From a virus, in the IMG/VR virus record IMGVR_UViG_3300042691_026747, positions 1-64,000 of that record: a stretch of 64,000 nucleotides of DNA; one strand, given 5' to 3'. Numbering within the stretch: the stretch's first letter is position 1; each line of letters opens with the position of its first letter. Below the pieces are notes generated by a model. The model did not search any database, was not told the origin of the DNA, and was given only the letters and a program-made list of their open reading frames with translations. Position numbers and translations under genes: made by a program. Positions 2,672 through 57,461 of this stretch are shown piece after piece.

Positions 2672-2683
2672 CATTATAAAGTT

Positions 2684-2709
2684 GTGGATATTTATGAAAT
2701 AAAGTCCAC
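2684..2709 (+). promoter_or_regulatory. Late promoter inside a start-codon hairpin (gp13-like gene)
   Basis: The box TATTTATG (2689-2696) ends 13 bases before the ATG at 2710. It sits inside an inverted repeat: GTGGA (2684-2688) pairs with TCCAC (2705-2709), and inner TTTAT (2691-2695) pairs with ATAAA (2699-2703) around a GAA loop. The right arm abuts the start codon. RNA reading through from the helicase gene would fold here, whereas RNA started at the box would lack the left arm. Confidence 0.55.
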
Positions 2710-3855
2710 ATGTCACTTATAATAGAAAATGCTGAAAAACAGAAATTATTCAGACAGGTCAGACACAGATTGGGTGCTCCACTTAGAAAAATTGAGTTGG
2801 ATGATGAACAAATGTGTACTTTATTGGAAATTGCTATAGAGGACCACTCTTCATTTGTTAATGAATGGTTAATTGAAACTCAATGGTCGTCATTAGACGG
2901 TATTAATTTAAGTACGGCAGATTTAAGTAAAGCTTTAACAACAAGAAGTTTAAACTATGAGGATTCCTTTACTTATGCCTATTCAAAAATTGTGGGTTTA
3001 CAGGCAAGAGGTCCTTGGGAATTAAAACAAGATTACGTCGTTTTAGAAAATGGTAGACAAGTTTATCAAATACCTGCGGGTAGGGAAATAAACGAAGTAT
3101 TATATTTCCAACCACCCACAGTTGATTATGCGTTATACTCAAACTATGGTTTTGGTGATTACGGTTTTGGTGGTGGTGTTGCTCAATTACCGTATGGTGC
3201 TGCAGGTGGTGGGTTTGGTTATGGTGGATTTTATTTGGCACCAGCATACGATATTGTATTAAGAAATGCTGATTATAATTTAAAACAAAGAATTGTCAGT
3301 TCTCAATTAACTTATTGGGTGACTGGAGGACCAAACGGAACTAAATTATTACATTTATCACCACCCCCAGGTAGTAGATTATCTTTTGGTGGTGCTGGAT
3401 TTGCTGGAGGTCAAAAAATAAATGTAGGTGGTAGTAAAGTTTGGTATTGGTATTATGAAACAACCTCTGATGAAGAAAGACAAAGATGTCTTAATGCTAA
3501 CAAAGATATTGTTAAATTACCTTCAGATGTTCCTGTAGATGTTGTTAACTATACAGAACTTAATTCACCATCCAAACAATGGGTTAGGGATTGGTTTACC
3601 GCTTTATGTAAAGAAACCCTAGGACGTGTTAGAGGTAAATTTGGTGGTGCTTTAGGTGTTACAGATGCTGAAGTCACCATGGATTATGAATCCTTATTAA
3701 GTGAGGCTAAAGAAGATAGAACCGTTTTAACGGAAAGATTAACAGAAAGATTAGAAAGACTACGTCCTGAAAATATGTTAACACGTAAGGCAACTGAAGC
3801 TGAACAATTAAATAAAGCATTACAATACAGACCTTTAGGTATTACAGTAATATAA
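2710..3855 (+). CDS. Probable neck / head-completion protein, gp13-like
   Basis: 381 residues. The N-terminus (residues 16-50) has the pattern LGAP, IELDDEQ, then a helix LLEIAIEDHSSFVNEW. The C-terminal third has WVRDWFTALCKETLGRVRGK, followed by a helical charged region. This order resembles the T4 gp13 neck protein, where a Trp/Tyr-rich 'AL-K-GxxxxKF' helix precedes a helical tail. A Gly/Tyr-rich low-complexity stretch near residues 140-180 is unusual for gp13 and may be an insertion. The gene overlaps the next by one base (TAATG). Virion role is likely; the exact homology needs profile comparison. Confidence 0.5.
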   Translation: MSLIIENAEKQKLFRQVRHRLGAPLRKIELDDEQMCTLLEIAIEDHSSFVNEWLIETQWSSLDGINLSTADLSKALTTRSLNYEDSFTYAYSKIVGLQARGPWELKQDYVVLENGRQVYQIPAGREINEVLYFQPPTVDYALYSNYGFGDYGFGGGVAQLPYGAAGGGFGYGGFYLAPAYDIVLRNADYNLKQRIVSSQLTYWVTGGPNGTKLLHLSPPPGSRLSFGGAGFAGGQKINVGGSKVWYWYYETTSDEERQRCLNANKDIVKLPSDVPVDVVNYTELNSPSKQWVRDWFTALCKETLGRVRGKFGGALGVTDAEVTMDYESLLSEAKEDRTVLTERLTERLERLRPENMLTRKATEAEQLNKALQYRPLGITVI

Positions 3856-12400: not shown

Positions 12401-13060
12401 GTAAATGTAAGAAATGGGTTATCAATAGGGAATTTTTTATCGAGTGGTTCTAATACTAATATTAATATATTAGGAGGTATATTAAGTGTTATTCAGTCAA
12501 TATCAAATACAGTTAATATTAATGGAGATGTAACAATATCTAATTACTTTTTAGATGGCGGCACTATGAATTATTTAGGTGGCAATGTTACAATTTTAGC
12601 ATATACTCACGGAACGGGAACTGCGAATTATTTAGGTGGAAAAGTTAAATGTACTGGAGTTTACAGTATAATATCTAATGGTACTTTTATAAATTTTGAC
12701 AAGGTAAATTTAATAACAGTTACAATTACCGCAGGAAGAACAATCACTATGAATAGGTTTTTTAACGGTACTGCTTCTAACCCAACAAGAATACAATGTG
12801 CAACCGCTGGAGCTAATTATTCCGTAACTTTTCAAGATACATTTGAAAAAATAGCAAATAACGTAAAGGTATCGGGGTGTATAGCATCAAGACCCGGACA
12901 ATTATTATTAACTGGTGCTAATAGCAACAAAGGTACAAACACAGGGATAAGATATATTAACAACGTACCAAATGGTATTGCCAGAAATCAGGCACCAATA
13001 TCCAATCAAATGATGTTTGGTATCGGTAACATCTCCGACCCTAGTTTTGTCGCAAATTAA
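9404..13060 (+). CDS. Giant beta-helix adhesin-like tail protein (duplicated)
   Basis: 1218 residues, mostly short Gly/Asn/Thr/Ser turns typical of a right-handed beta-helix. It begins TRTWRGTIDSNWGTAGNW with PTSADDVVFD, a module often opening beta-helix adhesins (NW, then PTxxDDVxF). A related module begins again about 740 residues later (PASTDDTAFD), and the flanking DNA repeats at a 2220-base offset. NVYYNTGTLT also occurs twice, 394 codons apart. The last about 60 residues, ending SQ-free and Met-rich (NQMMFGIGN), look like a separate capping segment. Likely a host-recognition or glycan-binding fibre; no hydrolase motif was seen. Confidence 0.7.
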   Translation: MPTRTWRGTIDSNWGTAGNWLEGAVPTSADDVVFDVSSSACTVNASARSCLTINFSAYTNTITMSNTITVGGDVTLGSSMIISGSSALIVNANATLRSNGRVWSNPLTLSGTSRTYTLADNWTVSNVLTLNGTTSQIINGSTIYSSGNLTSNTTAITSGTTNIELNGGTWSNSSTGVLRNNLTFNGNVSVNGNVYYNTGTLTYTGGTVTTTGSTLNIGASTTLNTSGMSWNNITLTTTGGVPTITNNSVITINGTFSIGNVKLDGSDFNCFGNVTHNASQTINGTATIYFKGNVNYFQGNNPPYSFRNNLVLDSGVNTITFTGLVGFDNITVTHSGGTVNASGSTINVNRNTVGLSTFNTSSVNWGNIELWGGTLVLSSDLNINGLLTMIGSSTTVNGSFNINANGGTTLNGVTIAKGTGTPRLYFKGGTVQSSNTLGRISMDSYIDGNITIGTLLIIGDNGSINYVSGVVTNTTNNTVSFANLNVSINLAGVTLNNVNFTSATNNYTITLLSNLNINGLLTTTGGSISGSFNINVSGGVTVINNGIFAQGTGTTVLNLLGGTWSITGTGVIRLNTVINGNITISGNVYYNTGTLTHSGGTVTSTGSTMNIGAATTITVNNTGFTLNNINTSANVTFAGTNGFPINGTYTCTTPGTTHTFVSTQTYSINSLNIAGTNASRVTLRSSSSGSKAIINLNSVQSEYYLNVTDIDGSGGATGWTFGGTVTNSDNWNASTTLYYVGASNFSATGSWAPYSGGVPIGSISAPASTDDTAFDVNSVNNCNMNAAGTCKSVNFSGYTATLTMTNTMTVSGNVTLASGMSISGSSALIVNATHTFTSNGKTWPNALTFSQSITITLTDDLNVNGLLTIGTLSNQIQTFNGTFNINCSGGLTVNSTFNQQGIGTTTVNILGGTFSGGGHRLNTNINGNVTINTIGFGVGILTYISGNVTVIGTCSLSGTLNVAPIIWNDVNVGTTTLLSDLNVNGRVSGFNVSFNGAFNVNVRNGLSIGNFLSSGSNTNINILGGILSVIQSISNTVNINGDVTISNYFLDGGTMNYLGGNVTILAYTHGTGTANYLGGKVKCTGVYSIISNGTFINFDKVNLITVTITAGRTITMNRFFNGTASNPTRIQCATAGANYSVTFQDTFEKIANNVKVSGCIASRPGQLLLTGANSNKGTNTGIRYINNVPNGIARNQAPISNQMMFGIGNISDPSFVAN
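9601..9678 (+). repeat. Direct repeat in beta-helix gene, copy 1
   Basis: Matches 11821-11898 at an exact offset of 2220 bases (740 codons); the core encodes ISGSSALIVNA in both. A second repeat pair lies at 9979-10008 and 11161-11190 (identical for about 30 bases). These mark large in-frame duplications. Confidence 0.85.
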
Positions 13061-13073
13061 TTTATATATTAAC

Positions 13074-13103
13074 CTTATTTCATATATTTATAAGTAAAAT
13101 AAG
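13074..13103 (+). promoter_or_regulatory. Candidate late promoter flanked by an inverted repeat
   Basis: TATTTATA (13085-13092) lies between CTTATTT (13074-13080) and AAATAAG (13097-13103), which are complementary. The next gene starts 70 bases downstream, so a leader of more than 50 bases would result, unlike the 13-base spacing elsewhere. The 102-base gap holds no other recognised element. Confidence 0.45.
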
Positions 13104-13162
13104 AGATTTTTTTGTAAATAAAAATTACCAAAAATCATTTAAATTAATGGCTAAACATTTTA

Positions 13163-14917
13163 ATGGACATCAAAAATAATTACTTTTTTAAAAATTTTGA
13201 GGCAATTAATATTGTTTACAATGAGTATTGGGATTTTAATTTATCTTCAGATAGATTAGGTGATTATCTTGATTATGCAACAAACTGTAAAAATTCTTGT
13301 AATTATACAGTAATAACTGATGGTTTAGTTGTTTGGTTTGATATTAATGAAAGTAATACAACAACAGATGGTTCATCTTTAACTTCTTTAATTACATGGT
13401 CTGGTAGTACCATAATTCCGTCTACTGGTTTTACTTTAAATGATTGGGGTTTAACAGGTGTTGATAATGGTAGAACTTATTGTTTATCAGGTGAAACATT
13501 AGTTATCACACCTACAGATACAAAATTAGTGTTATATCCAGTCACAGGTTTAACTGTTGTATTTGATAGTACAGGTTGTACAACAACTAAAGGTCTTTAT
13601 GATTATCCTTGGTCTTTTCATTCTAATACAACAACAACCGATGGTTGTATTGTTGGAGATACCATTTGTTTAAACGGAGGTTTTTATCAAGGGTTTTTTA
13701 AATTAGATACAGATAGACCAGCACCAACTTCTGTTATGGATGTTGACGCATGTAATAATACAGGTTATACATTAACCACAACTTCAGCGACAACAAAATG
13801 GGAAATAATGCCAACGGAATTTCCTGTTGGTTGGTCGATGGAAACTTGGGTTAACGCTTCCAATGGTTATTGTTTAAATTTAACAGGAAATACTTTAAAT
13901 GAACTATACCCAAACAATAAAGGATTTTTCTTTTATATTGGTACAAGGTCTGAAAATAAATTTTGGAATACTTTTTCTGGTGAATCTGGTTATAAAACAA
14001 CAACAGGAATTCCTTTATCAAACGACGAAGAAAAATTGTGGGATCAAAATTTACAAGGTCCTAATGACGGACAATCTTGGTTTACGGTAAAAGGAAGTAC
14101 ATTTTCTTGTTGTTGTGATGCTTGTGGTAATACAACAACTTATACCGATCCTAATATTATAACAGGTGGTCAAAATTGGTTTCAATACCAAGGTAGTGGG
14201 TTTTGTTGTCAAACTTGTAGTGCAACAACTACAACTGTTGTAACAGGTCATTCTTATTCTTATTGTGACCAATTATCAGAAAACGCTTTAGGTTTTAGAA
14301 TTACAGATGACGGTAGAATAGGTTATCGTAAATTAACTGTTACAGGTGGGTGTTATAATAATGAATATAGAATAACTGGAACTGTAATGGAAGAAGGTTA
14401 TTCCGAACCAAACATTATACCATCTGGTAATACTTGGAATCATATTGTCGTAACATACACAGCTGGTGGTGGTTTTAAAAATGATTTACCTTCTGGTACA
14501 CTTAAATTTTGGGTTAACGGATTGGTTAAATATTCGGTTAAAGATTTTATCGGTTTACAACTTAGAGCTTTGGACGAATGGAGTGATAAACAAATAGGCG
14601 TACCGTTCAACATAAGTTGGGGTGGTGGTACACAAGGTTTATTGGAAAGTCAAACTTTTAACGGTCCTGATTACGCGGATAGAAATTTATTAATTCAAGA
14701 AAATTTTGCTGGCACTTTTGAGGGTGAATTATCACAATTAAGATTTTATGAAAAACCTTTAAATGTTTTAGAAGTTAGAAATAACTTTTTTATTGATTGT
14801 AAAAGATATTGTAAACCAAACAATTTTGGTGGAGCACAAATTGTACAACCAAATAATAATAATTGTAGTGGTTGTAAAAGTCCATTACCACCGTATATTT
14901 TTATACCGTGTGATTGA
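13163..14917 (+). CDS. Tail protein with LamG/concanavalin-like domain
   Basis: 584 residues. From about residue 205 a LamG-like fold is suggested by WSMETWVNAS, then TWNHIVVTYTAGG, LKFWVNG and the closing GELSQLRFYEKPLN, the usual order of strands in concanavalin-like jelly rolls. Between them are cysteine-rich inserts (SCCCDACG near residue 312 and FCCQTCSATTTT near 350). Such domains bind glycans in tail fibres. The start at 13163 was chosen because an ATG at 13147 opens a frame that stops after 10 codons. Likely an exposed tail protein. Confidence 0.65.
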   Translation: MDIKNNYFFKNFEAINIVYNEYWDFNLSSDRLGDYLDYATNCKNSCNYTVITDGLVVWFDINESNTTTDGSSLTSLITWSGSTIIPSTGFTLNDWGLTGVDNGRTYCLSGETLVITPTDTKLVLYPVTGLTVVFDSTGCTTTKGLYDYPWSFHSNTTTTDGCIVGDTICLNGGFYQGFFKLDTDRPAPTSVMDVDACNNTGYTLTTTSATTKWEIMPTEFPVGWSMETWVNASNGYCLNLTGNTLNELYPNNKGFFFYIGTRSENKFWNTFSGESGYKTTTGIPLSNDEEKLWDQNLQGPNDGQSWFTVKGSTFSCCCDACGNTTTYTDPNIITGGQNWFQYQGSGFCCQTCSATTTTVVTGHSYSYCDQLSENALGFRITDDGRIGYRKLTVTGGCYNNEYRITGTVMEEGYSEPNIIPSGNTWNHIVVTYTAGGGFKNDLPSGTLKFWVNGLVKYSVKDFIGLQLRALDEWSDKQIGVPFNISWGGGTQGLLESQTFNGPDYADRNLLIQENFAGTFEGELSQLRFYEKPLNVLEVRNNFFIDCKRYCKPNNFGGAQIVQPNNNNCSGCKSPLPPYIFIPCD

Positions 14918-14925
14918 TATTTATA
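14918..14925 (+). promoter_or_regulatory. Candidate late promoter, near-leaderless
   Basis: TATTTATA ends 6 bases before the ATG at 14932 and overlaps the end of the previous gene. Its preceding bases (TTGA) match other late boxes. Transcription starting about six bases downstream would give a leaderless message. Confidence 0.4.
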
Positions 14926-14931
14926 TATGAT

Positions 14932-15321
14932 ATGGCACAAAACTTCTTCATAAGAAAAAACTCCAATTTACCATTATTAAAGTTAAAATTAATCAACGAC
15001 GGTAGATTAACATATAGAACCATTTATGACCGTTTAGAGAACGCGGCCATAACATTTTCCATGATGGATGATAAAGGTATTTACAAAGTATTTAACAAAC
15101 AAGGTTTGTTAATACCTGTGGATAAAGAAATTTGTCCTGAAGATGGTGAGTATTATTTAGGTTATGAATTTGATTTAAAAGATACTAATGTCGCCGGAGT
15201 ATTCAAGGCAGAATTTAAAGTTGATTTTTTAGATAATGGGGAATCCCTTATTGTACCAATTCGTGAAGATTTATATGTTACGGTATTGGATAGCTTTACT
15301 AAGAGTAAAATAGTTTGTTAA
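14932..15321 (+). CDS. Small beta-sandwich structural protein
   Basis: 129 residues from the chosen start MAQNFFIRKNSN. An upstream in-frame ATG at 14914 would begin inside the preceding coding end and the promoter box, so it is less likely. The body alternates strands (LPLLKLKLINDGR, AAITFSMMDDKG, EYYLGYEFDLKD, VFKAEFKVDFLD) like an immunoglobulin-type domain of a baseplate or tail decoration protein. No family assigned. The stop overlaps the next start (TAATG), so translation is probably coupled. Confidence 0.6.
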   Translation: MAQNFFIRKNSNLPLLKLKLINDGRLTYRTIYDRLENAAITFSMMDDKGIYKVFNKQGLLIPVDKEICPEDGEYYLGYEFDLKDTNVAGVFKAEFKVDFLDNGESLIVPIREDLYVTVLDSFTKSKIVC

Positions 15322-15659
15322 TGGATATAAGAAAATTAATAAAAGAAGAATTAGAAAATAGTGAAAGTTTTAAAACTTTTGCTGAAAAAAGATTAGCTGG
15401 AGCTGAAAAAATCACAAACAATGCTAAAGAAAAAGGTGGCCCAGCGATGTTAACTTACCATCACTTTAGGGTTAAACTTCCTTACTATAAAAAAGCTATG
15501 GAAGGTAAGTTAGATATTGAAAAAACAAAAAAAGAATTTAAAGAAAAATTAGACCAATTATGTGAATTATCTGAAAATGTTGAAATGTCACAAGTTGAAT
15601 TTCAAAAATTGGTTGGTCTGATAGAAGTTTTAGGTGAATTAATTATTAAACAAAAATAA
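15321..15659 (+). CDS. Small helical protein with capsid-targeting-like N-terminus
   Basis: 112 residues from ATG 15321, chosen because it overlaps the previous stop. It begins MDIRKLIKEELENSES, an amphipathic helix with an I-x-E site at residues 7-9. T4 internal proteins start similarly (MKTYQEFIAEA) and are cut after that Glu by the prohead protease. The rest is helical and charged, with a middle segment GGPAMLTYHHFRVKLPYYKK. No family recognised. An internal virion protein is a reasonable hypothesis. Confidence 0.6.
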   Translation: MDIRKLIKEELENSESFKTFAEKRLAGAEKITNNAKEKGGPAMLTYHHFRVKLPYYKKAMEGKLDIEKTKKEFKEKLDQLCELSENVEMSQVEFQKLVGLIEVLGELIIKQK

Positions 15660-15676
15660 TATTCACAATATCATTT

Positions 15677-15684
15677 TATTTATA
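15677..15684 (+). promoter_or_regulatory. Candidate promoter upstream of DNA polymerase
   Basis: TATTTATA in the 92-base gap before the polymerase gene, 67 bases from its start. It would give a leader of about 60 bases containing the hairpin at 15718-15731. Weak alone because of the AT-rich background. Confidence 0.3.
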
Positions 15685-15717
15685 TAAATTTTATTAGTTA
15701 TTAATTTATAAACGAGA

Positions 15718-15731
15718 GGTTATCTGTAACC
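15718..15731 (+). promoter_or_regulatory. Small hairpin in polymerase leader
   Basis: GGTTA, loop TCTG, TAACC: a 5-base-pair stem 20 bases before the polymerase start, in the only GC-richer part of the leader. T4 polymerase binds a hairpin in its own leader to repress translation. Position suggests a similar operator, but the sequence is not the T4 one. Confidence 0.35.
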
Positions 15732-15751
15732 CGTCCCAAACAGAGTTTTAT

Positions 15752-18610
15752 ATGAGTAAAAAAGAAATTAAACAAGCAACACCCGAAGATATTAAGGTGT
15801 TTCTAGAAGGCCAAGACCCTGAAAAATATATTGTAGCCGTAGAGTTACCCCAAACTGGGGACTGGTCGGTAGATGAAACCGATAGAGTTTACACATTTAT
15901 CGATGACCCTAAAAAGGGTAAAATGATAAAAACCCAAAAATTTACACCTTTCTTATGGACAAAATCACTTAGAGGCAGTGGTTTCTATGGTGATGACATG
16001 GATAGAATGCGTGCTGAAGCCAAAAAATTCGGTATTTTCACAGAGAAACTTAGAACTGACGGTGATGAACGTTTAGAAGATGGTTTTAAATTTATTGTTA
16101 AAACTTCTGGTACATATAGAGAATTAATAAACTTCTTTAAAAAAGGTGGTTTAGACCCTTGGAAAAGAAAAGACCTAATTCAAATGGTACAACCCATCGA
16201 ACAGTTTATGATACAAACGGGTAAACGTTTATTTAAAGGTTTTGATGATTATACTGAGGTTCATAAGTTAGTATTTGATATTGAGACCACCTCATTAGAT
16301 CCTGAAGATGGTCACATATTTTTGATTGGGATTAAAGACAATCGTGGTTTTCGTAAGATTATTGACTCCTATGATGAAAGTGGTAATTGGAGTGAAGAAA
16401 CTGAACGTAGAATGTTAAAAGAATTTTTTAACATTTTACATGAACGTAATGCTTCTATTATTACAGGTTATAATTCAGAAAACTTTGACTGGAAGTATAT
16501 CTTAGGTAGAATGAGAATCTTAGGTATTAGTAATGAAGCTTTTGTTATTAGTAAGATAGGTGATAAAACAACCACAATAAACACTAAAGGTATTATTAAA
16601 ACAAGACATCCTGAAATACCTATGTATCGTAAAACAGCGTCCCTTAAGTTAGGTGCTGAATTAGAAAAATATGAACAAACAGTTATGTGGGGTATTAACA
16701 TTTTAGATACTTTACATAGGGTTAGACAGGCACAGGCATTAAATTCAAACTTAAAAGAGGCAGGTTTAAAATATATCGCTAAAGAAGCCAAAGTAGAAAG
16801 ACCTAATCGTGTTTATGTGGACGGGGGTCAATTAGGTAGAATGTGGGTTCAGAATAAAAAATATTGGTACAACCCAACTAGTGGTCAATGGTATGATTTA
16901 GATGGTATTAAACCTGAACCTAAATTATTTGAAGATAAAAAAGGTGAGATGGTTGTTATTGATGGTTATGAAGATAAGTGGGAAGAGGTTGACGGTAGAT
17001 TTTTAATTACAGAATATCTTACGGATGACTTGTTGGAAACTGAGCAAGTAGATGATATTTACACACAAGCAGGTTTTTTAACGGCAGCTTTAGTACCAAC
17101 AACATTTAACCGTTCAATAACTATGGGTACGGCAACAATGTGGAAATTATTAATGATGTCTTGGTCTTATGAAAATGGTTTGGCATTACCTGATATACTA
17201 CCCAAAAGAGATTTCACAGGTGGTTTATCGAGGTTATTACACTTAGGGTATAGTAAGAAGGTGGCTAAATTTGACTACGCATCACTTTATCCGTCCATAC
17301 AATTAACACATGAAGTATTCCCAAGTTGTGACATTACAGGAGCTTTGAGAGCCATGTTAAAATATCTTTCTGATACTCGTAATAAGTATAAAAAATTAAT
17401 GAATGACGAGGCAGCAAAAGGTAATATGAAATTATCATCTATGTATGACAAAAAACAATTACCTATTAAAATTTTAAATAACTCAGCTTTTGGTTCTATT
17501 TCAGCACCTTATATTTTTCCTTGGGGTGATATTGATATAGGTGAAATGATTACTTGTACAGGTAGACAATACCTTCGTTTAATGATTAAATTTTTCATGG
17601 ATAGAGGTTATACACCTTTAGTGTTAGATACTGATGGTGTTAACTTTTCATGTCCTGAAGATGTTGAAAATAGAACGTATAATGGTAAGGGTTTACATCG
17701 TTTTGTTAAAAAAGATGAGGTTTATACAGGTATAGATGCAGATGTTGCTGAATATAATGAAAGATATATGTTTGGTGCTATGGGTCTTGATATCGATGAT
17801 ATTATGGACGCTACCATTAACTTGTCTAGAAAGAATTATGCCATTCTAAAACCAAGTGGTAAAGTTAAATTAACAGGTAATACTATTAAGGGTAAAACAA
17901 TACCTAAATATATTGAGAAATTCTTAGCTAAGGCTATTAGATTATTATTGGATGGTAAAGGTAAAGAATTTGTTGATTTTTATTATGGGTATTTAGAAAA
18001 AATTTATAATAAACAAATACCTTTAGTTGATATAGCTAACAAATCTAAAGTTAAAAAAACCGTTCAATCGTACCTTAAAAGAGGTTTGGATAAAAATGGT
18101 AGAGACTTACCAAGACAGGCCCACATGGAATTAATAATTCGTGATAACATTCATGTTAATTTAGGTGATACTTTGTATTATGTTAATAACGGTAGTCGTA
18201 AATCACATGCCGATATTTCTTTCAGTAAGACTAAAAAAACACCTGAAGGTGAACTTAAATTTAACTGTTATTTAATTACAGAAGACCAAATTAAGAAAAA
18301 TCCCGATTTGACTGGTGATTATAATGTACCAAAATACATTGAAGCTTTTAATAAAAAAGTTGAGCCACTTTTAGTTGTATTCCCATTACATATTAGAGAG
18401 TCGTTAATTATAGATAACCCTGAAAATAAACAATTTTTCACATCTAAGGAATTAGAACTAATAGGTGGTGTAGCAACTAACCCTGAAGACCAAGATACAT
18501 TGGAGGAACTTATGACTATGAGTGATAGTGAGATTAAATTTTGGGATTTAAATGGTAAACCTTCAAATTATATGATAAAGGATCGTTTTGAAGAATTACA
18601 AGAAAATTAG
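15752..18610 (+). CDS. 43: Family B DNA polymerase (T4 gp43-like)
   Basis: 952 residues, close to the 898 of T4 gp43. The proofreading domain has Exo I FDIETTSL (Asp174-Glu176), Exo II GYNSENFD (about 240-246) and Exo III near YLTDD (about 421). Polymerase motif A is DYASLYPS (about 507), motif B KILNNSAFG (about 572) and motif C LDTDGVNF (about 625). All metal-binding Asp residues are present. The usual Ser after DTD is Gly here. It replicates the phage genome with clamp and loader encoded elsewhere. A short hairpin precedes the start. Confidence 0.95.
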   Translation: MSKKEIKQATPEDIKVFLEGQDPEKYIVAVELPQTGDWSVDETDRVYTFIDDPKKGKMIKTQKFTPFLWTKSLRGSGFYGDDMDRMRAEAKKFGIFTEKLRTDGDERLEDGFKFIVKTSGTYRELINFFKKGGLDPWKRKDLIQMVQPIEQFMIQTGKRLFKGFDDYTEVHKLVFDIETTSLDPEDGHIFLIGIKDNRGFRKIIDSYDESGNWSEETERRMLKEFFNILHERNASIITGYNSENFDWKYILGRMRILGISNEAFVISKIGDKTTTINTKGIIKTRHPEIPMYRKTASLKLGAELEKYEQTVMWGINILDTLHRVRQAQALNSNLKEAGLKYIAKEAKVERPNRVYVDGGQLGRMWVQNKKYWYNPTSGQWYDLDGIKPEPKLFEDKKGEMVVIDGYEDKWEEVDGRFLITEYLTDDLLETEQVDDIYTQAGFLTAALVPTTFNRSITMGTATMWKLLMMSWSYENGLALPDILPKRDFTGGLSRLLHLGYSKKVAKFDYASLYPSIQLTHEVFPSCDITGALRAMLKYLSDTRNKYKKLMNDEAAKGNMKLSSMYDKKQLPIKILNNSAFGSISAPYIFPWGDIDIGEMITCTGRQYLRLMIKFFMDRGYTPLVLDTDGVNFSCPEDVENRTYNGKGLHRFVKKDEVYTGIDADVAEYNERYMFGAMGLDIDDIMDATINLSRKNYAILKPSGKVKLTGNTIKGKTIPKYIEKFLAKAIRLLLDGKGKEFVDFYYGYLEKIYNKQIPLVDIANKSKVKKTVQSYLKRGLDKNGRDLPRQAHMELIIRDNIHVNLGDTLYYVNNGSRKSHADISFSKTKKTPEGELKFNCYLITEDQIKKNPDLTGDYNVPKYIEAFNKKVEPLLVVFPLHIRESLIIDNPENKQFFTSKELELIGGVATNPEDQDTLEELMTMSDSEIKFWDLNGKPSNYMIKDRFEELQEN

Positions 18611-18615
18611 GAATA

Positions 18616-18652
18616 TTTAAGTTTTCTTTGATATTTATAAAGAAAACTTAAA
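18616..18652 (+). promoter_or_regulatory. Late promoter in the loop of a perfect 14-bp inverted repeat
   Basis: Left arm TTTAAGTTTTCTTT (18616-18629) is perfectly complementary to the right arm (18639-18652), which directly abuts the ATG at 18653. The 9-base loop plus the first right-arm base contain TATTTATA (18632-18639), 13 bases from the start codon. RNA coming from the polymerase gene would bury the initiation region. RNA initiated at the box would have lost the left arm. T4 lysozyme and soc genes use this arrangement. Confidence 0.7.
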
Positions 18653-19312
18653 ATGTTTATATCTAAGAAAATAATACAAGAATTGGTTAATAAAGACGGC
18701 GGTAAGTTAGGTAGTGACAATGTCAAATTAAGTGTAGACAATTCTAAATCGGCCTCCAATAGTACCATGGATCCTATGTTTGATCCTAAAGATGGTGACC
18801 AAATAAAAAACTCATCAATACAAAGTACAAGACAACAAGGTTATAGAGGGTGGTACTCTCTTGTACCTATGCCTGCTGTTAAAACACCTATGAGAAATAG
18901 TATAGATGTTGATGATAATATTAGTTACATGGATGACGAAAAAGAAAAAACTTGTAAACATTGTAAAGGTGAAGGTTGTAAAATATGTGCAAAAAATAAA
19001 CTAAAAGAATCTTCTAAGAAAAAAATGGAAGAATATGTTGAGGATATTGTTTCTAAAAAAATATCTAAAGACGTTTTAGATAAAGTTAGAAAAGACGGAG
19101 ATATTAGAAAAAATGGTATTCCTGACATTGATATTATTGCGGAAGAAAATCCGGTTTTGGTTAGAAAAACCAAAAATCTTATTGACGCCATTAAAACCAA
19201 TTTGGCAACAGGTGAAGAAAAAGGTGTTATATTAAACTTCTTAATAACCAATATAGATACCATGGATATTCCAACAGAATATAAACAAGAAATGTTAAAA
19301 AAATTAAGATAA
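18653..19312 (+). CDS. Probable virion protein with Cys4 knuckle and targeting-like N-terminus
   Basis: 219 residues. It starts MFISKKIIQELVNKDGG, an amphipathic segment with an I-x-E site (Ile8-Glu10). Residues near 104-114 read CKHCKGEGCKIC, a CxxC-CxxC zinc knuckle like half of a DnaJ zinc finger. The C-terminal half is helical. SYMDDEKEK upstream of the knuckle resembles Y-M motifs of the prohead core protein. The late promoter hairpin before it argues for strictly late synthesis. No enzyme motif. It overlaps the next gene at TAATG. Confidence 0.6.
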   Translation: MFISKKIIQELVNKDGGKLGSDNVKLSVDNSKSASNSTMDPMFDPKDGDQIKNSSIQSTRQQGYRGWYSLVPMPAVKTPMRNSIDVDDNISYMDDEKEKTCKHCKGEGCKICAKNKLKESSKKKMEEYVEDIVSKKISKDVLDKVRKDGDIRKNGIPDIDIIAEENPVLVRKTKNLIDAIKTNLATGEEKGVILNFLITNIDTMDIPTEYKQEMLKKLR

Positions 19313-19869
19313 TGGCAAATTCTTCATTACAAGGACACACATGGGATTTACCGCAAGAGTTATGTAATCATCTTAAAAGGATACATAGGGCCTATAAAGG
19401 TGATAAGAATGTTGAAGGTTATGGTAGATTGGATAATCTAATTAAAAACCCTAAAATGAGTTATGAACAATTAAAAAGAATTAAAAACTTTTTTGATACT
19501 CACCAAACATCCAATACTGATTATATGGATGATAAGAAACAAGATACACAATTTATATTAAATGGTGGTTCTAAAATGAGATATTGGGTTGATAAAACTT
19601 TGGAAGATGCTAGATCAGGCGTTAAAAACCCTAAAGAGTTGAAAAAAGATGTTGGTATGATGAACCAGTTTCAAAAAGACAGACTTAGTCATACAAAAGG
19701 TTTATCTAAAAATCCAACAAAAGTTGATGGTAATAAAGAATTAAAAGAACAAAAACAAATAAATAAAGATATTTATATAAAGAAGGAGATGGCTTTAATG
19801 GAATCTCTGATAAACATTTTTGATAAAAACAAAGAAATATGCCAGCACAAACAATCTCTCCAATCTTAA
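19312..19869 (+). CDS. Conserved hypothetical protein, probable virion component
   Basis: 185 residues, basic and helical. It starts MANSSLQGHTWDLPQELCNH and carries TDYMDDKKQD near residue 70, again the Y-M-D motif. No recognised domain. Its start overlaps the preceding stop and its end overlaps the next gene by 31 bases, so this is a tightly coupled late unit. An internal ATG at 19789 preceded by AAGGAG is in frame near the C-terminus and could give a 26-residue product; this is not supported further. Confidence 0.6.
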   Translation: MANSSLQGHTWDLPQELCNHLKRIHRAYKGDKNVEGYGRLDNLIKNPKMSYEQLKRIKNFFDTHQTSNTDYMDDKKQDTQFILNGGSKMRYWVDKTLEDARSGVKNPKELKKDVGMMNQFQKDRLSHTKGLSKNPTKVDGNKELKEQKQINKDIYIKKEMALMESLINIFDKNKEICQHKQSLQS

Positions 19870-20192
19870 CTGACGCTAACAGTGTTCAGGATATGGGACC
19901 AGGTGGTGTCTTAAACCAATTACCTAGTTTAAAAGCTACAGCTGATAGTGAAAGAGTAAAATTAACTGTCTTAAATGATTACAAAGATAATAATAATGAC
20001 AGATATAATGCACAACACCCTAATGCTTTAAGTGATATGGATGAAAAAGGTCGTGGTGAAACTAACAACCAAGTAGGTACTAAAACAGACATTATGACCA
20101 AAAATACTTTATTATACTCATCAGGTAATAAGTACAAACCTGGTAACGGAAATGGGTATAATAACATATCATACCCAGAGCAACATTGGTAA
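19839..20192 (+). CDS. Small hydrophilic protein, unknown
   Basis: 117 residues, low in hydrophobic residues and rich in Asn, Asp, Lys and Gly. It starts MPAQTISPILTDANS and contains DMGPGGVLNQLPSLKA. Probably flexible. No family recognised. It lies in the row of small genes after the polymerase and ends 19 bases before an inserted endonuclease gene. Its C-terminus (NNISYPEQHW) shows no sign of truncation, so the insertion probably fell between genes. Confidence 0.55.
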   Translation: MPAQTISPILTDANSVQDMGPGGVLNQLPSLKATADSERVKLTVLNDYKDNNNDRYNAQHPNALSDMDEKGRGETNNQVGTKTDIMTKNTLLYSSGNKYKPGNGNGYNNISYPEQHW

Positions 20193-20211
20193 AATAGCAC
20201 CCAAATTAATT

Positions 20212-21315
20212 ATGAACACAAAAACATATGATTTTATTAGTAAATCAAAAATAATACATAACTCAAGTTATGATTATTCTTTAGTAGAATATTATAATAA
20301 TTATACTAAAGTTAAAATTATATGTCCAAGTCACGGTGTTTTTGAGTGTACACCCAATAATCATTTAAGTAAGAAAAGTGCTTGTCCATCTTGTGCTAAA
20401 AATAAATTATCAAAGTTATTTGCTAATAGTAAAGAAAATGTGATAAACGGGTTTAAAAAAATACACGGTTATAAGTATGATTACTCTTTAGTTAATTATA
20501 TAAACACAAACACAAATGTAGATATCATATGTCCAATACACGGTAAATTTTCACAAAAACCAAAGTTACATTTAAAAGGTTGTGAATGCCCTAAATGTTC
20601 AGATACCAGATCCTCTAAAGAAATTTTTATAAATAAAGCAACATCAAAACATGGGTCTAGATATGATTATTCAATGGTTAATTATGTGAACAACTACACC
20701 AAAGTAGATATACTATGTAACCAACACGGTGTTTTTAAACAAAAACCAACTAGCCATATAAACGGTTGTGGGTGTCCTATATGTTATAAAGAAAGTTTAT
20801 TTCATACTACAGAAGTTTTTATTGAATTAGCCAAAAAAGTCCATAAAAACAAATACGATTATAAATACCTTAAATATGTGGATTCAAAAACAAAAGTGGT
20901 TATCACATGTCCTAAACACGGTGAATTCAATCAAAAACCAAATAACCATTTAAACGGTTCTGGTTGCCCAAGTTGTAACACATCTAAAGGTGAATTAATG
21001 ATTAAGGGTTTTTTAGATGATAATTTGATTAATTATATACAACAACACAGTTTTCCTAATTGTAGGTATAAATTACCTTTAAAATTTGATTTTTACTTAC
21101 CGGATTATAATACATGTATTGAATACGATGGTGTACAACACTTTAGACCACATAACTTAGATAAAAGTGGTATCGAGTTCGAAAGGACTAAAAAATGTGA
21201 CGAAATTAAAGATAATTATTGTAAAAAAAATAATATAAAACTGATACGTATTAAATATAATGATAATTATGATTTATATGAACTATTTATTAAAAACAAT
21301 ATATCGGTAAGATGA
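20212..21315 (+). CDS. Homing endonuclease with four zinc-ribbon modules and a PD-(D/E)XK-type nuclease
   Basis: 367 residues from MNTKTYDFISKSK. An upstream in-frame ATG at 20152 lies inside the previous gene and was rejected. Four about 63-residue modules follow, each with YDYSLVxY, a TKVxIxCPxHGxF strand, then NHL and CPxC (DUF723-like). The C-terminal about 110 residues contain KGELMIKGFL, FDFYLPDYNTCIEYDGVQHF and KCDEIKDNYC, the acid-rich core of Vsr/DUF559-type nucleases. A paralogue with three modules lies at 47196. The end overlaps the next gene by four bases, typical of free-standing homing genes placed between phage genes. Confidence 0.8.
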   Translation: MNTKTYDFISKSKIIHNSSYDYSLVEYYNNYTKVKIICPSHGVFECTPNNHLSKKSACPSCAKNKLSKLFANSKENVINGFKKIHGYKYDYSLVNYINTNTNVDIICPIHGKFSQKPKLHLKGCECPKCSDTRSSKEIFINKATSKHGSRYDYSMVNYVNNYTKVDILCNQHGVFKQKPTSHINGCGCPICYKESLFHTTEVFIELAKKVHKNKYDYKYLKYVDSKTKVVITCPKHGEFNQKPNNHLNGSGCPSCNTSKGELMIKGFLDDNLINYIQQHSFPNCRYKLPLKFDFYLPDYNTCIEYDGVQHFRPHNLDKSGIEFERTKKCDEIKDNYCKKNNIKLIRIKYNDNYDLYELFIKNNISVR

Positions 21316-21695
21316 AGCTTTACAATCTCCTAAAAGAAATTATTGTAGAAGAAGCTAGTAGGAATGAAGTTGAAAAGGCTATCACAAATCATGATTTAAT
21401 TGAAATTTATTATGAGGGTGATGAAACAATCAACCCAGGTCGACGTAGTATTGAACCTTACGTGTTAGGTGTCTCTCCTAGAGAAAATTTAATATTACGT
21501 GCATATCAATATGCAGGTGTTACTGATACCGAACAACCAGGTTGGAAAACTTTTAGATTGGATAAAATAAGAGATTGGCAAGAATTGGGTCGAACTTTTA
21601 ACACACCAATTTCAGATAGAATTTCAAATATACCAAAATATAACCCTAATGGGGATAGAAGTATGATAACAATATTTAAACAGGCAAAATTTTAA
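21312..21695 (+). CDS. WYL-like domain protein with targeting-like N-terminus
   Basis: 127 residues. It starts MKLYNLLKEIIVEEASRNEV, an amphipathic helix with L-x-E and I-x-E sites. From residue 25 the order IEIYYEG, PGRRSIEPYVLGV, ENLILRAYQYAG, PGWKTFRLDKIRDWQ is that of a WYL-type ligand-binding fold, without the helix-turn-helix that bacterial WYL regulators have. WYL domains sense nucleic acid or nucleotide ligands. Packaging into the head by the N-terminal helix is an inference. It overlaps the endonuclease stop by four bases. Confidence 0.6.
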   Translation: MKLYNLLKEIIVEEASRNEVEKAITNHDLIEIYYEGDETINPGRRSIEPYVLGVSPRENLILRAYQYAGVTDTEQPGWKTFRLDKIRDWQELGRTFNTPISDRISNIPKYNPNGDRSMITIFKQAKF

Positions 21696-21696
21696 T

Positions 21697-22323
21697 ATGG
21701 AAATGAACCCACAAATGATAGAAATCTTGAAAAAGGCTAAAGCTATCGATAAAGCAGCAAGAAAATTTGATACTGGTGCACCAAAAAAACCACAATCTGG
21801 CGGTTTGTTGGATCAGATGGGTGGTTATGGTGACACAACGATGATGAGTGAATCCACACCATCAATTAAAAAAGATATTGGTAGTGAAAATTACAGACAA
21901 GCTGTGACGAACTCTAAACTACCACCAGCAATACAAAAAGCTATGTTGGAAAATCCAATACCACAAGCCGAGTTTGTTAGTGTGGATCAAGAGGCTATTA
22001 GACAACTTAGAGAAATGGATGAACCTGTAAATACATATAGTGAAGAAGATGAAATTGATATGTATGAAAAACCGGTAAGAAGGTACGAAACTCAACAAAA
22101 GAGACCAATCAAAGAAAATGTGGAATCTAAATCTGTAGATATTAATGAATCTTATTTACGTAAATTAATAGCTTCTGAAATATCAAAAGCTTTACCTAAA
22201 ATAGTTGAAGATTATTTTGATAAACGTTTAGTTAAAGAAAACGTGCAATTTAAGGCAGGTAACACTATCTTTTCCGGTACCGTAATGCCAATGCCAAAGT
22301 TAAAAGGAAAGAATAACATTTAA
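21697..22323 (+). CDS. Probable virion-associated protein, unknown
   Basis: 208 residues, hydrophilic. The N-terminus is helical (MEMNPQMIEILKKAKAIDKA). The middle is disordered and rich in Pro, Gly, Met and Gln. Near residue 150 the segment INESYLRKLIASEISKALPK resembles an I-x-E-bearing amphipathic helix seen at N-termini of neighbours. The C-terminus ends in a short beta region (FKAGNTIFSGTVMPMPKLKG). No family recognised. One base separates it from the WYL-like gene, so it is in the same late unit. Confidence 0.55.
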   Translation: MEMNPQMIEILKKAKAIDKAARKFDTGAPKKPQSGGLLDQMGGYGDTTMMSESTPSIKKDIGSENYRQAVTNSKLPPAIQKAMLENPIPQAEFVSVDQEAIRQLREMDEPVNTYSEEDEIDMYEKPVRRYETQQKRPIKENVESKSVDINESYLRKLIASEISKALPKIVEDYFDKRLVKENVQFKAGNTIFSGTVMPMPKLKGKNNI

Positions 22324-22341
22324 CATTAAAAAAAATACAAC

Positions 22342-22404
22342 ATGACGACTAAAGGATGTGGTTGTAAAGGCAACAAAGGTACACCAAAAGGTAATAAGAA
22401 GTAA
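22342..22404 (+). CDS. 20-residue Cys/Gly/Lys micropeptide
   Basis: ATG at 22342 gives MTTKGCGCKGNKGTPKGNKK and a stop. It has an A-rich leader like its neighbours, starts 19 bases after the preceding gene and ends just before a strong terminator. The CGC pair and the dense Lys/Gly composition suggest a nucleic-acid- or metal-binding peptide. No homology claim can be made. It could be a chance frame, but position within the transcript favours a real gene. Confidence 0.45.
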   Translation: MTTKGCGCKGNKGTPKGNKK

Positions 22405-22430
22405 TTCGTAACCTTTACAAAAAGTGATTG

Positions 22431-22458
22431 AAACCCCATTATTATATGGGGTTTTTTA
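22431..22458 (+). terminator. Rho-independent terminator
   Basis: AAACCCCAT (22431-22439) pairs with ATGGGGTTT (22446-22454) around a 6-base loop, followed by a T-run. It closes the late unit that began after the polymerase gene and separates it from the glycan island. Confidence 0.85.
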
Positions 22459-22491
22459 TTTTATACCCATAATATTTTTAATATATACATA

Positions 22492-23814
22492 ATGAGTCAA
22501 ATTAAAGTACTGGTAATACCTTCGGACCGTTCAGGTGTTAGTAAATTTCGTTCAGTGGATCCACACATAAAATTACAAGAATTATTCCCTAAAGAATTTT
22601 TTGTTGATATTGTAACAGCTGGTACTGACGGTATCGACTGGAACGATGAAAATTATCTCAAACAATTTAACATAATACATTTTCATAGAACAATTAGTGA
22701 TGTTGTTGATGGTAGGTTACAACCTGTTTACGGTGAAAAAGTTAAAAACGTTTTTGATAGGTTAAAAAAATATGGCATTATAACCATAATGGATTTAGAT
22801 GATTATTGGATGCCAGGTCCAGAACACCCAGTACACGTTATGTTAAAACAAATGAAAATGGACGAATTAATAAAATCCAATTTTGCCGTAGTAGATTATG
22901 TTACAACCACAACATCAATATTTGCCGAAGAAATTAAAAAATACAACAAAAATGTTGTTGTTTTACCAAACGCTATAGACCCTTCAGAACCACAATTTCA
23001 AAAGAAAAAAATTAAATCCGATAAAAAACTTAGATTTGGTTGGTTAGGTGGTTCTTCTCATTTACATGATTTAGAAATTCTTAGACAAGGTTTAAATATT
23101 TGGACTGGCAGTGAAGAAGGAAAAAATTCTCAATTAGTTTTATGTGGTTTTGATTTACGTGGTAATGTTACAGAAACAAACCCTAATACAGGTGAACAAA
23201 AAACAAGAAAAATTTTACCACATGAAAGTGTATGGTGCAGATATGAAGAAATTTTTACAAATCATTATAATTCATTATCTAATGATTATAAAAAACATTT
23301 ATTAAAATATAATCAAGATGAGGATAATGATTATTCAGATAGTAATGAAACTTACAGAAGAGTATGGACCAAACCTATTACCACATATGCCTCTAATTAT
23401 AACATGTTTGATGTGTCTTTGGCTCCTTTAAAAGAAACTTTATTTAATAAAGTAAAATCACAATTAAAGGTTATTGAAGCTGGTTTTCATAAAAAGGCTT
23501 TGATAGCTCAAAATTTTGGTCCTTACACAATTGACTTGGTTAATGTAATTGAATATGGTGGGAAAATTAATGAAAATGGAAACGCTATATTAATCGACTC
23601 CAACAAAAACCATAAGGATTGGTTAAAAGCTATTAAATTTTTATACAATAACCCAGAAATGGTTGATAAAATGGGTGAAAACCTTTATAATACAGTTGTA
23701 AAAAGATACCATATCGATGTTGTTACAAAGTTGAGAGCTGAATTTTATTCCTCAATAGTGAATGGTAAAGAAAAAGAAGTTAAACAATTAGTAAAAGAAA
23801 CAAATGAAATTTAA
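22492..23814 (+). CDS. Glycosyltransferase, GT-B fold (group 1-like)
   Basis: 440 residues. The N-terminal domain starts KVLVIPSDRSGVSKFR and contains IIHFHRT and MDLDDYW. The linker has VLPNAIDP, and the C-terminal domain opens with RFGWLGGSSHLHDLE, the usual GT4 arrangement. Near residues 310-320 VSLAPLKETLFNKVKS marks the nucleotide-sugar-binding helix (normally E-x7-E, here with K-V-K-S and IEAGFHKKAL). It transfers a sugar from an activated donor; donor and acceptor are unknown. It opens the glycan island and overlaps the exonuclease gene by 11 bases. Confidence 0.8.
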   Translation: MSQIKVLVIPSDRSGVSKFRSVDPHIKLQELFPKEFFVDIVTAGTDGIDWNDENYLKQFNIIHFHRTISDVVDGRLQPVYGEKVKNVFDRLKKYGIITIMDLDDYWMPGPEHPVHVMLKQMKMDELIKSNFAVVDYVTTTTSIFAEEIKKYNKNVVVLPNAIDPSEPQFQKKKIKSDKKLRFGWLGGSSHLHDLEILRQGLNIWTGSEEGKNSQLVLCGFDLRGNVTETNPNTGEQKTRKILPHESVWCRYEEIFTNHYNSLSNDYKKHLLKYNQDEDNDYSDSNETYRRVWTKPITTYASNYNMFDVSLAPLKETLFNKVKSQLKVIEAGFHKKALIAQNFGPYTIDLVNVIEYGGKINENGNAILIDSNKNHKDWLKAIKFLYNNPEMVDKMGENLYNTVVKRYHIDVVTKLRAEFYSSIVNGKEKEVKQLVKETNEI

Positions 23815-24514
23815 CATTGAAAAACTATTATTCTTTGATGTTGAAACTGTATCCAAATATCAAAGTCTTTATGACATGATAGATATTGAATTGGACATGT
23901 GGATGAGATATTATGAGTCATCTAGAAAAAAAGTTACAGATGAGACTAAACTAGATGGTTTAAAAGAAGGTTCAAAAGAGTATTACAATGAAGTTTACAG
24001 ACAAACAGCGGCATTCTTCCCAGAATTTGGGAAGGTTGCCTGTGTGTCAATGGCTTTCGTAAATAAAGGTAAAACTAAATTTGATTCTTATTACGGTAAG
24101 GATGAATTAGAAATATTAAAAAATGTTAGAAATATATTTGACAAAGTAGATAAATTAGATTTCTCACTTTGTGGTCATAGTATTAAAGTTTTTGATATAC
24201 CGTTTTTAGGTAAAAGATATTTCATAAACGGTTTAAGACCACCCACAATATTCCCTAATCATGATACTAAACCTTGGGAACTTAAAGTTTTAGATACTAA
24301 GGATATTTGGCAATTTGGCAATAATTGGTCCTTAGGTTCTTTAGATTTAATATGTTCAGCACTTAATATAGAGTCACCAAAAAATGGTGATGTTAAAGGT
24401 GACAATGTAACATCAAGCTATTGGCTTGATAAACATGAAGAAATAAAAGAATATTGTGAAAGAGATACCAAATCTTTGGTAGATATTATTACGAAATTAA
24501 ACAATTTACAATAA
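23804..24514 (+). CDS. DEDD 3'-5' exonuclease (DNA_pol_B_exo2-like)
   Basis: 236 residues. Motif I is LLFFDVETVS (Asp10, Glu12). Motif II lies in CGHSIKVFDIPFLGKR near 125, and motif III in EYCERDTKSLVDI near 220. This spacing and the KVLDTKDIWQFG segment match the PolB-exo2-like predicted exonucleases, which are common in phages and bacteria. It may trim DNA ends during replication or recombination. It overlaps the preceding and following genes, and is oddly placed among glycan genes, beside dUTPase. Confidence 0.8.
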   Translation: MKFNIEKLLFFDVETVSKYQSLYDMIDIELDMWMRYYESSRKKVTDETKLDGLKEGSKEYYNEVYRQTAAFFPEFGKVACVSMAFVNKGKTKFDSYYGKDELEILKNVRNIFDKVDKLDFSLCGHSIKVFDIPFLGKRYFINGLRPPTIFPNHDTKPWELKVLDTKDIWQFGNNWSLGSLDLICSALNIESPKNGDVKGDNVTSSYWLDKHEEIKEYCERDTKSLVDIITKLNNLQ

Positions 24515-45454: not shown

Positions 45455-46255
45455 ATGGCAGAAAATAAAACAACAATTATAATTCCAATCCATAAAATGG
45501 ATGACACTCTAAGTTCTTATTTTGAAAAGGCTATAAAAAGTGTTGAAAATCAAAAAATTAACCCAGAAGAAGTTATTATTGTAACAGCAAAAGGTGTTAA
45601 AATTAATGAAGAATATTTAAAAAACGTAAATTATAGAATAGTAGTTAATGAAGGTAATACTGATTTTTGTTCACAAATTAATTTTGGTGTTGAACAAGTT
45701 AAAACCACTTTCTTTTCTATATTAGAAGTTGATGACGAGTATTCAAAAATATGGTTTGATAATGTTAACAAATATGTAGAGGCTTACGATGAAACAGATG
45801 TTTTCTTACCAATTGTTTTAGATGTAAGTCCTGAAGGTCGTTTTTTACATTTTAGTAATGAACCTGTATGGGCTAAAGACTTTTCTGATAAATTAGGGTT
45901 TTTAGACAATGATGCTTTATTGAACTTCCCCAACTTTCAATTGTCGGGTGCTGTTATTAAGGTAGACGCTTTCAAAGCCGTGGGTGGTTTAAAACCTAGT
46001 ATTAAACTTCACTTTATATATGAGTTTTTATTAAGAATGACTTATTATGATAAAAAAATAATGACCATCCCTAAATTAGGGTATAAAAAAGTTAATATGA
46101 GACCAGATTCTTTATTTTTTAATTATCAAAATAAAGAAACGGATAAAATCGATGTTATTGAGGCCAGATTTTGGTTTAGTACTTCCCGTAAGGAATGTTA
46201 TTTTAAAGCCGATAGAAACATAAAGTTTGATAGAGAGATTTCTACAATAGTATAA
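45455..46255 (+). CDS. GT2-type glycosyltransferase
   Basis: 266 residues. TTIIIPIHKMDDTLSSYFEKAI is the GT2 first strand. FFSILEVDDEYSKIWFDN has the DxD-like site near residue 90, and FQLSGAVIKVDAFKAVGGLK the acceptor-loop region. It ends the glycan island; its stop overlaps the sigma-factor start by one base. Substrate unknown. Confidence 0.78.
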   Translation: MAENKTTIIIPIHKMDDTLSSYFEKAIKSVENQKINPEEVIIVTAKGVKINEEYLKNVNYRIVVNEGNTDFCSQINFGVEQVKTTFFSILEVDDEYSKIWFDNVNKYVEAYDETDVFLPIVLDVSPEGRFLHFSNEPVWAKDFSDKLGFLDNDALLNFPNFQLSGAVIKVDAFKAVGGLKPSIKLHFIYEFLLRMTYYDKKIMTIPKLGYKKVNMRPDSLFFNYQNKETDKIDVIEARFWFSTSRKECYFKADRNIKFDREISTIV

Positions 46256-47064: not shown

Positions 47065-47166
47065 ATGGGAAGACCACAAAAAAAACAAGTTAAATTAAAT
47101 ACCGAAAGTTTTTTAGGCATAACTCAGGAAAGTTATAGTACAAATAAAATTGGGTTATGGTGGTAA
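47065..47166 (+). pseudogene. Stranded 5' fragment of the gene at 48071
   Basis: 33 codons, starting MGRPQKKQVKLNTESF and reading ITQESY before diverging to a stop. The first 25 residues align with the start of the gene at 48071 (MARPTKKKIELTKQSF, VAQEAY): 11 identities plus conservative changes. The fragment has the proper late promoter at 13-base spacing. The downstream homologue starts inside the endonuclease gene. Most simply, this is the original 5' end left behind when an endonuclease gene with its own flanking copy was inserted. A functional short peptide is the alternative. Confidence 0.6.
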
Positions 47167-47182
47167 AAAACCATTTACCTTA

Positions 47183-47190: not shown

Positions 47191-47195
47191 TGTAT

Positions 47196-57455: not shown

Positions 57456-57461
57456 GTGTTA

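Follow-up and report, generated by a model that had tools for sequence, protein, structure and literature searches.

A hairpin switch is known from the phage T4 genes e, soc, segB, and I-TevI, and from mobE of Aeromonas phage Aeh1 (PMC2988022, PMC3014915). According to these reports, the hairpins of e, I-TevI, I-TevII, I-TevIII, segB, and Aeh1 mobE can form only in a long RNA, while soc is named among the genes with a sequestered ribosome-binding site (PMC2988022, PMC3014915); the homing endonuclease genes in this group (I-TevI, I-TevII, I-TevIII, segB, and Aeh1 mobE) are reported to be silent in read-through RNA (PMC2988022). The T4 late box reads TATAAATA (PMC3014915) and is described as lying about one helical turn upstream of the transcription start, with A/T-rich sequence downstream (PMC2988020). 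For late-promoter hairpins in phages of Bacteroidota, no report was found in the open-access literature, as judged mostly from titles and the openings of abstracts.

The DNA analyzed here (the window) is a stretch of 64,000 nucleotides that belongs to an 86-kb virus record (IMGVR_UViG_3300042691_026747). In PHROG, its major capsid protein matches the family of major head proteins; Rhodothermus phage RM378, two uncultured phages, Microcystis phage Mel-JY01, and Flavobacterium phage immuto are among the best capsid matches, and many T4-like phages come next. In a 318-kb relative (G001), TATATTTG, which we take to be the Bacteroidota −7 element (i.e., a host-type, early-type box), was found upstream of open reading frames (ORFs) 24 times in sense and 10 times in antisense orientation (2.8 expected). 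Shine-Dalgarno-like motifs upstream of genes were nearly absent (5/286 in G001, 3/117 in G007, and 0/79 in G000); because of this near absence and the enrichment of TATATTTG in G001, a Bacteroidota host is likely. The junction described here lies between a polymerase gene and a gene encoding a protein of 219 aa, and includes the following features:

15752–18610, plus strand: family B DNA polymerase gene, the source of the presumed read-through RNA
18616–18629, plus strand: left hairpin arm, TTTAAGTTTTCTTT, in the gap 3′ of the polymerase stop codon
18632–18639, plus strand: late-type promoter box TATTTATA in the loop, with sense-strand enrichment in relatives
18639–18652, plus strand: right arm of the hairpin, AAAGAAAACTTAAA, adjoining the ATG
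18645–18652, plus strand: putative leader of the late transcript, about 8 nt, assuming a start about 6 nt past the box
18653–19312, plus strand: putatively controlled gene, 219 aa, without a match in Pfam and with a single weak one in PHROG (function unknown)

The polymerase presented a distant likeness (23–30% identity) to enzymes of Salinibacter and Nostoc/Anabaena phages. Eight distinct orthologues of the 219-aa gene, window included, could be aligned; the profile of this protein gave weak matches to PDB entries, its structure model was uninformative (pLDDT 46.5), a scan of genome contigs with the gene family gave no relative, and megablast of positions 14000–24000 against phage records gave no match. 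Elsewhere in the window, an endonuclease-type ORF (20152–21315) matched HNH/homing endonuclease families, and a second ORF that resembles it (47157–48098) is endonuclease-type by reading of the ORF list. The polymerase leader contains a conserved RNA-like element just upstream of the start codon (15710–15745; 7/7 aligned sequences), with ACGAG, a GG-containing arm, CTGT, a CCC(G/A)TCC arm, and CAGA in this order; GGTT/AACC and GGG/CCC alternate in this element and CTGT could pair with ACAG (TCAG in one sequence), suggesting a possible hairpin or pseudoknot operator like that of T4 gene 43 autoregulation.

We propose, with a probability of roughly 0.7, that the repeat at 18616–18652 would act as an RNA switch that couples synthesis of the 219-aa protein to the gene's own late promoter. 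RNA running through from the polymerase gene would carry both arms, fold, and bury the start region and the AUG, while RNA begun at the loop box TATTTATA would lack the left arm, could not form the stem, and would be translated. T4 late RNA starts about 6 nt after the late box; with this spacing, the late leader would be about 8 nt long and would lack the left arm as well as the first 6 nt of the right arm.

The perfect 14-bp inverted repeat noticed in an earlier reading of the sequence alone (the sequence-only reading) is present exactly as claimed. The two arms are fully complementary and enclose a loop of 9 nt (GATATTTAT), the left arm starts 6 nt past the polymerase stop codon, the final base of the box is also the first base of the right arm, and the right arm directly abuts the ATG at 18653. 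No Shine-Dalgarno sequence is found before this ATG; it is AAAGAAAACTTAAA that precedes the start. Perfect repeats of at least 14 bp (loop 3–20 nt) presented a mean of 0.083 per window and a maximum of one in 60 dinucleotide-preserving shuffles of the whole window, as compared to two in the real window. The predicted RNA fold of positions 18596–18680 (−14.6 kcal/mol, z = −2.9) was equaled by 2/200 shuffles, and all three bases of the start codon are paired in the minimum-energy structure. An Rfam scan at gathering thresholds gave no match.

Opening of positions 18645–18668 was predicted to cost 10.2–11.5 kcal/mol in read-through RNA versus 1.2–3.9 kcal/mol in RNA starting at 18645, and the predictions for a slightly different region were similar (9.8–10.1 kcal/mol in read-through RNA versus 1.1–4.6 kcal/mol in late RNA). 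For a late RNA ending at 18720, the mean unpaired probability of the start region was 0.51, as compared to 0.21 for read-through RNA; weak structure in this late RNA re-pairs the U and the G of the AUG (unpaired 0.18 and 0.01, respectively). In F. johnsoniae, initiation is reported to be tuned partly by structure around the start codon, on mRNAs that naturally lack Shine-Dalgarno sequences (PMC6847099), and burying of the start region is therefore a plausible off state. Of the T4-like regulation supposed by the sequence-only reading, the box motif, the kept hairpin, and the predicted gap in opening cost speak in favor, but the T4 logic does not transfer literally because these genes have almost no Shine-Dalgarno sequence to hide. 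Its claim that late RNA would lack the left arm agrees, at the level of sequence, with the location of the box (18632–18639) 3′ of this arm. What we infer here are the late start point, the timing of read-through, and the translational effect of the switch.

With regard to the origin of the read-through RNA, no match to the Bacteroidota-type promoter (TAnnTTTG) was found between position 13050 and the polymerase start; the nearest full match upstream on the same strand is at 13017, approximately 2.7 kb from the polymerase start. The gene at 14932, two genes upstream, has a late box of its own, and the read-through RNA could therefore also be late; if so, the switch would not set the time of expression but confine translation to transcripts begun at the gene's own promoter.

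The closeness of the left arm to the polymerase stop codon would also fit an intrinsic terminator, or a 3′-end stabilizer of the polymerase-gene RNA, that contains a promoter in its loop by chance. A form that joins terminator and promoter seems to exist in relatives, where two homing endonuclease genes (G001:25888–26697, locus L054, and G007:7082–7966, locus L069) have the late box in the loop of a stem that is followed by a T run; this element is possibly a terminator/promoter hybrid that blocks read-through and fires late. No such T run follows the stem ending at 18652 (AAAATGTTTATATC), however, and a terminator scan of positions 13000–23000 omits the junction (the scan needs three G-C pairs, and the stem has two). 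What a real terminator looks like in the window can be seen at 63409–63443, the second of the two perfect repeats, which is longer (15 bp), is followed by TTTTTTT on the minus strand, lies downstream of a minus-strand gene (63464–63949), and is an ordinary intrinsic terminator on that strand. We consider it unlikely that the hairpin after the polymerase gene serves as a terminator or stabilizer, and continue with the reading as a late-promoter switch.

The loop box TATTTATA is the reverse complement of the T4 late box, and the claim of a sense-strand promoter thus needed a separate test; the T4 box is not found in sense orientation at this junction, where sense TATTTATA is found instead. In the window alone, the count of TATTTATA was barely higher than expected by chance (31 vs. 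22), and sense-strand copies near ATGs were conspicuous. In G001, no 8-mer was more enriched upstream of ORFs than ATATTTAT, which lies within the 60 nt before 81/386 ORFs in sense and 24 in antisense orientation (5.0 expected), and ATATTTAT was also top-ranked in G007, G000, G010, and G014. In the isolate Flavobacterium phage immuto, TATTTATA ranked first in the structural region (13/44 ORFs; 0.33 expected), and other motifs were favored in the first 75 kb. Upstream of ORFs in G007, TATTTATA was found 27 times in sense and 12 times in antisense orientation, and the T4 box 12 times in sense and 27 times in antisense orientation (1.45 expected for each), with the sense count of the T4 box also above expectation. 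This comparison supports the loop box as a strand-specific promoter-like motif, and the late box placed in the loop by the sequence-only reading has thus passed an enrichment test of its own in relatives. A late promoter on the minus strand, where the T4 box could be read, was also considered and was rejected, given that most of the enrichment is seen in the opposite orientation.

One gene in the window encodes a member of a sigma-like protein family:

46255–47028, plus strand: candidate phage late sigma factor (gp55-like), with family profile matches

Sigma70_r2 was matched by 17 of the 21 members of this family (best E = 1.2e-6; E up to 0.1), and the PHROG family phrog_234, annotated as "late sigma transcription factor", was matched by 10 of the 21 (best E = 2.9e-5; E up to 0.1). 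The window's own protein matched Sigma70_r2 at 0.016 and did not match phrog_234; searched alone, it fell below the cut-off, and its fold matches were weak and mostly to sigma factors (E of 0.02 or worse). In the scanned stretches this family has 329 relatives, of which 80 were retrieved. The phage thus appears to encode a sigma-like protein that is a candidate late sigma factor.

Over 139 late sites, which represent a non-redundant set from the fetched records, the distance from box to ATG was bimodal, with 48 sites at 4–8 nt, 4 at 9–11 nt, and 68 at 12–24 nt. With T4-like spacing, the 4–8 nt class would be transcribed into leaderless or nearly leaderless late mRNA; short-distance examples in the window are found at 14918–14932 and 57455–57469. 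In addition, G001 encodes the ribosomal protein bS21 (ORF 35249–35404, minus strand; L226), with a late box 6 nt from the ATG, in agreement with the late expression reported for bS21-encoding phages of freshwater Bacteroidetes (PMC9723584); bS21 had no match in the 10 other records searched, which may be fragments.

Of 14 polymerase loci retrieved, 10 share this junction, while four (L018 and L020–L022) have another. Two further loci (L119 and L124) were added from a pattern scan that contains the core of the hairpin, so their core is conserved by construction; conservation of their outer arms was not forced by the search pattern. Distinct junction sequences total eight, window included, and the hairpin is present in all eight, each with a codirectional upstream gene. 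This gene is the polymerase gene, directly upstream, in six of the eight; in L119 and L124, an 80%-identical codirectional polymerase gene is located upstream, and a codirectional open frame lies in the 313 nt between this gene and the core. All eight junctions keep the inner stem, TTT(C/A)TTT/AAAGAAA, whereas the outer arms vary yet largely match (e.g., TTTAAG/CTTAAA in the window versus TTTGAG/CTCAAA in L010), and the re-matched arms include an exchange from A-U to G-C. The compensatory changes that the sequence-only reading had proposed to look for in related phages were thus found as matched exchanges, although the shuffle control described below was not decisive. The outcome was mixed for mismatched arms, which that reading had named as evidence against itself: all eight junctions pair, but the perfect 14-bp stem is found only in the window's sequence and in the sequence shared by L010 and L011. 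The remaining six present an A·G mismatch inside the stem (G004 and G006), a bulge (G009/G011), or a shorter outer stem, with duplex energies of −8.5 to −12.3 kcal/mol.

In an ungapped alignment of the junctions, 83% of the cells pair (50–67% in slid controls), and changes on both sides are found in 4/14 pairs. Pairing was equally good in 40/500 alignment shuffles, the number of both-side changes was reached in 220/500, and the covariation score was reached in 41/500; a slide of +2 columns even scored slightly above the true register (0.151 vs. 0.140). Because shuffles and slide reach or exceed the real values, covariation in the ungapped register is suggestive, not proof. RNAalifold recovered the hairpin unprompted, with an unfavorable covariation term (+0.92). 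When the register was left free, own arms of the post-polymerase gene paired better than swapped arms (p = 0.003; 10 sequences). The core arms lie outside the promoter consensus, as TTTNTTTG precedes the box at 1/107 sites and AAAGAAA follows it at 2/107 sites.

Hairpins with a late box were also found at the start of other genes:

2673–2723, plus strand: second hairpin of this type, head-tail adaptor gene (ATG 2710), with box ATATTTAT at 2688–2695
51613–51654, plus strand: third, weaker candidate, at the gene starting at 51646, with box ATATTTAT at 51624–51631
73575–76733 of the record, minus strand: large terminase gene with late-box hairpin (L023:9578–12733)

The adaptor gene matches phrog_211, and its hairpin pairs ATTAT with ATAAT, AAGT with ACTT, and TGTGGA (2683–2688) with TCCACA (2705–2710). 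Where a helicase gene lies upstream in the same direction, all six distinct sequences have a stem (p = 0.01–0.065). The arms at this gene fall into three unrelated sets, with differing sets in G006/G007 and G009/G011, and own arms paired better than swapped arms (p = 0.001; 8 sequences). Stem positions at the adaptor junction vary from one relative to another, which is why RNAalifold detected no shared structure, and support there comes from single-sequence duplexes and the swap test. In the 51646 candidate, AATTCCC (51613–51619) pairs with GGGAATT (51648–51654), such that the right arm begins at the G of the ATG; this stem presented p = 0.08 in the window and p = 0.045 in G007, and the comparison of own with swapped arms gave p = 0.042, the smallest value possible with the four sequences available. 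The large terminase start has a 12-bp late-box stem (p = 0.005 in G000, 73575–76733; p = 0.095 in G007). This terminase gene also carries an intein with a LAGLIDADG domain. Homing endonuclease genes with a late-box stem include G007:7082, G001:25888, and G014:26489, while the GIY-YIG endonuclease genes G001:206343 and G007:83856 are conspicuous in their opening cost, not in their duplex score. In immuto, no strong stem was found at the 16 late-box genes among 75 gene starts checked in the larger annotation.

Two relatives, G010 and G014, differ in the orientation of the upstream gene. Their orthologue of the 219-aa gene is 32–42% identical to it over part of the C-terminal half, has a divergent upstream gene, and presented a late box without matching arms (p = 0.385 and 0.875, respectively), while for the G014 start a high opening cost (7.6–8.1 kcal/mol) is nevertheless predicted. 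At the adaptor gene, which a homologous divergent ORF separates from the helicase gene in both genomes, a stem is either missing or weak (p = 0.68 and 0.155). The G010 orthologue of the 51646 gene has a codirectional neighbor, yet a weak stem. As G010 and G014 are the most distant relatives, their missing arms may reflect distance, and the contrasts at the post-polymerase and adaptor genes, which split the same two distant genomes, may represent only one or two events. Over all sites, stems were found at 10/92 codirectional versus 1/47 divergent starts (Fisher p = 0.06; 0.12–0.25 by p thresholds, not significant). Presence of the hairpin with a codirectional neighbor and absence with a divergent neighbor is a prediction for more genomes.

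Among the 139 late sites, 11 presented a stem of −12 kcal/mol or lower, as compared to 1.4 expected from swapped left arms; when each site was judged on its own right arm, 7 sites versus 2.8 expected were found at p up to 0.02. Early-type TATATTTG sites presented no stems at −12 kcal/mol or lower (0/30; 0.4 expected) or at −11 kcal/mol or lower (0/30; 0.6 expected), a weak control with few stems expected by swapping. In the full set of 38 orthologue clusters, own arms had the advantage over swapped arms in only 15; among clusters with a stem of −10 kcal/mol or lower, own arms paired better in 8/9, a figure that is partly built in because clusters were ranked by their best stem. These data bear on the possibility that the arms are AT-rich flanks of a promoter that match by chance and have been retained only through their slow evolution. 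The genome is A+T-rich, and late sites commonly have T-rich sequence before and A-rich sequence after the box, which yields weak pairing by itself; the mean for swapped arms is already about −5 kcal/mol, and the alignment shuffles do not decide against this origin. Such an origin is nevertheless improbable in view of the rarity of these repeats in shuffled windows, the matched exchanges in the outer arms together with the swap test, and, with the reservation made above, the early-type sites without strong stems.

A perfect palindrome centered on a promoter box also has the appearance of a DNA operator, at which a dimeric repressor would control the late promoter, as in the autorepression of I-TevI; the T4 I-TevI late promoter is reported to be under operator control (PMC2988022). 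The arms, however, differ between genes and between relatives and stay mutually complementary, which a fixed protein would not follow, and pairing runs into the coding sequence at 2710 and 51646. We therefore regard an operator as very unlikely here, and the switch acting in RNA is retained as the preferred reading.

A wider reading, which we offer tentatively and rate somewhat below even odds, is that large T4-related phages of Bacteroidota may have a standing late-promoter-in-loop design (at the post-polymerase, adaptor, terminase, 51646, and endonuclease genes) that would occlude starts without a Shine-Dalgarno sequence, with arms re-invented and sometimes fused to a terminator, alongside nearly leaderless late messages. 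If true, this design would either have converged on the T4 mechanism or share a deep ancestry with it; to find such logic again in unrelated sequences, with a different late box and without a Shine-Dalgarno sequence, suggests that the design may be selected for itself. The junction also allows a test of whether pure start-codon occlusion controls expression on Bacteroidota ribosomes.

Compared with T4 e and soc, the junction is similar in that a late gene has a stem over its translation start and a late promoter placed to leave the 5′ arm out of the RNA, which is reported as shown for e; it differs in that T4 hides a ribosome-binding site, whereas here the start codon region is paired and no Shine-Dalgarno sequence is present, and in that the box is TATTTATA rather than the T4 box, with unrelated sequence, gene, and presumed host phylum. 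Similarity to I-TevI, I-TevII, I-TevIII, segB, and Aeh1 mobE includes a promoter beside or inside an arm, as described for these genes, and several late-box hairpin genes in relatives are also homing endonuclease genes; in contrast, the window's 219-aa gene has no endonuclease match, and two of the relatives' endonuclease genes add a T run that suggests terminator and promoter in one element. An eight-base A/T box and a phage-encoded sigma-like protein, as a candidate, resemble the T4 late promoter and gp55, although the box here has, in sense orientation, the reverse complement of the T4 sequence. We do not file the junction as a member of the T4 class, since it hides something other than a Shine-Dalgarno sequence, uses a different box, and has no sequence in common with that class; the best reading is that it would work like the leaders of T4 e, soc, and I-TevI, as a proposed variant without a Shine-Dalgarno sequence.
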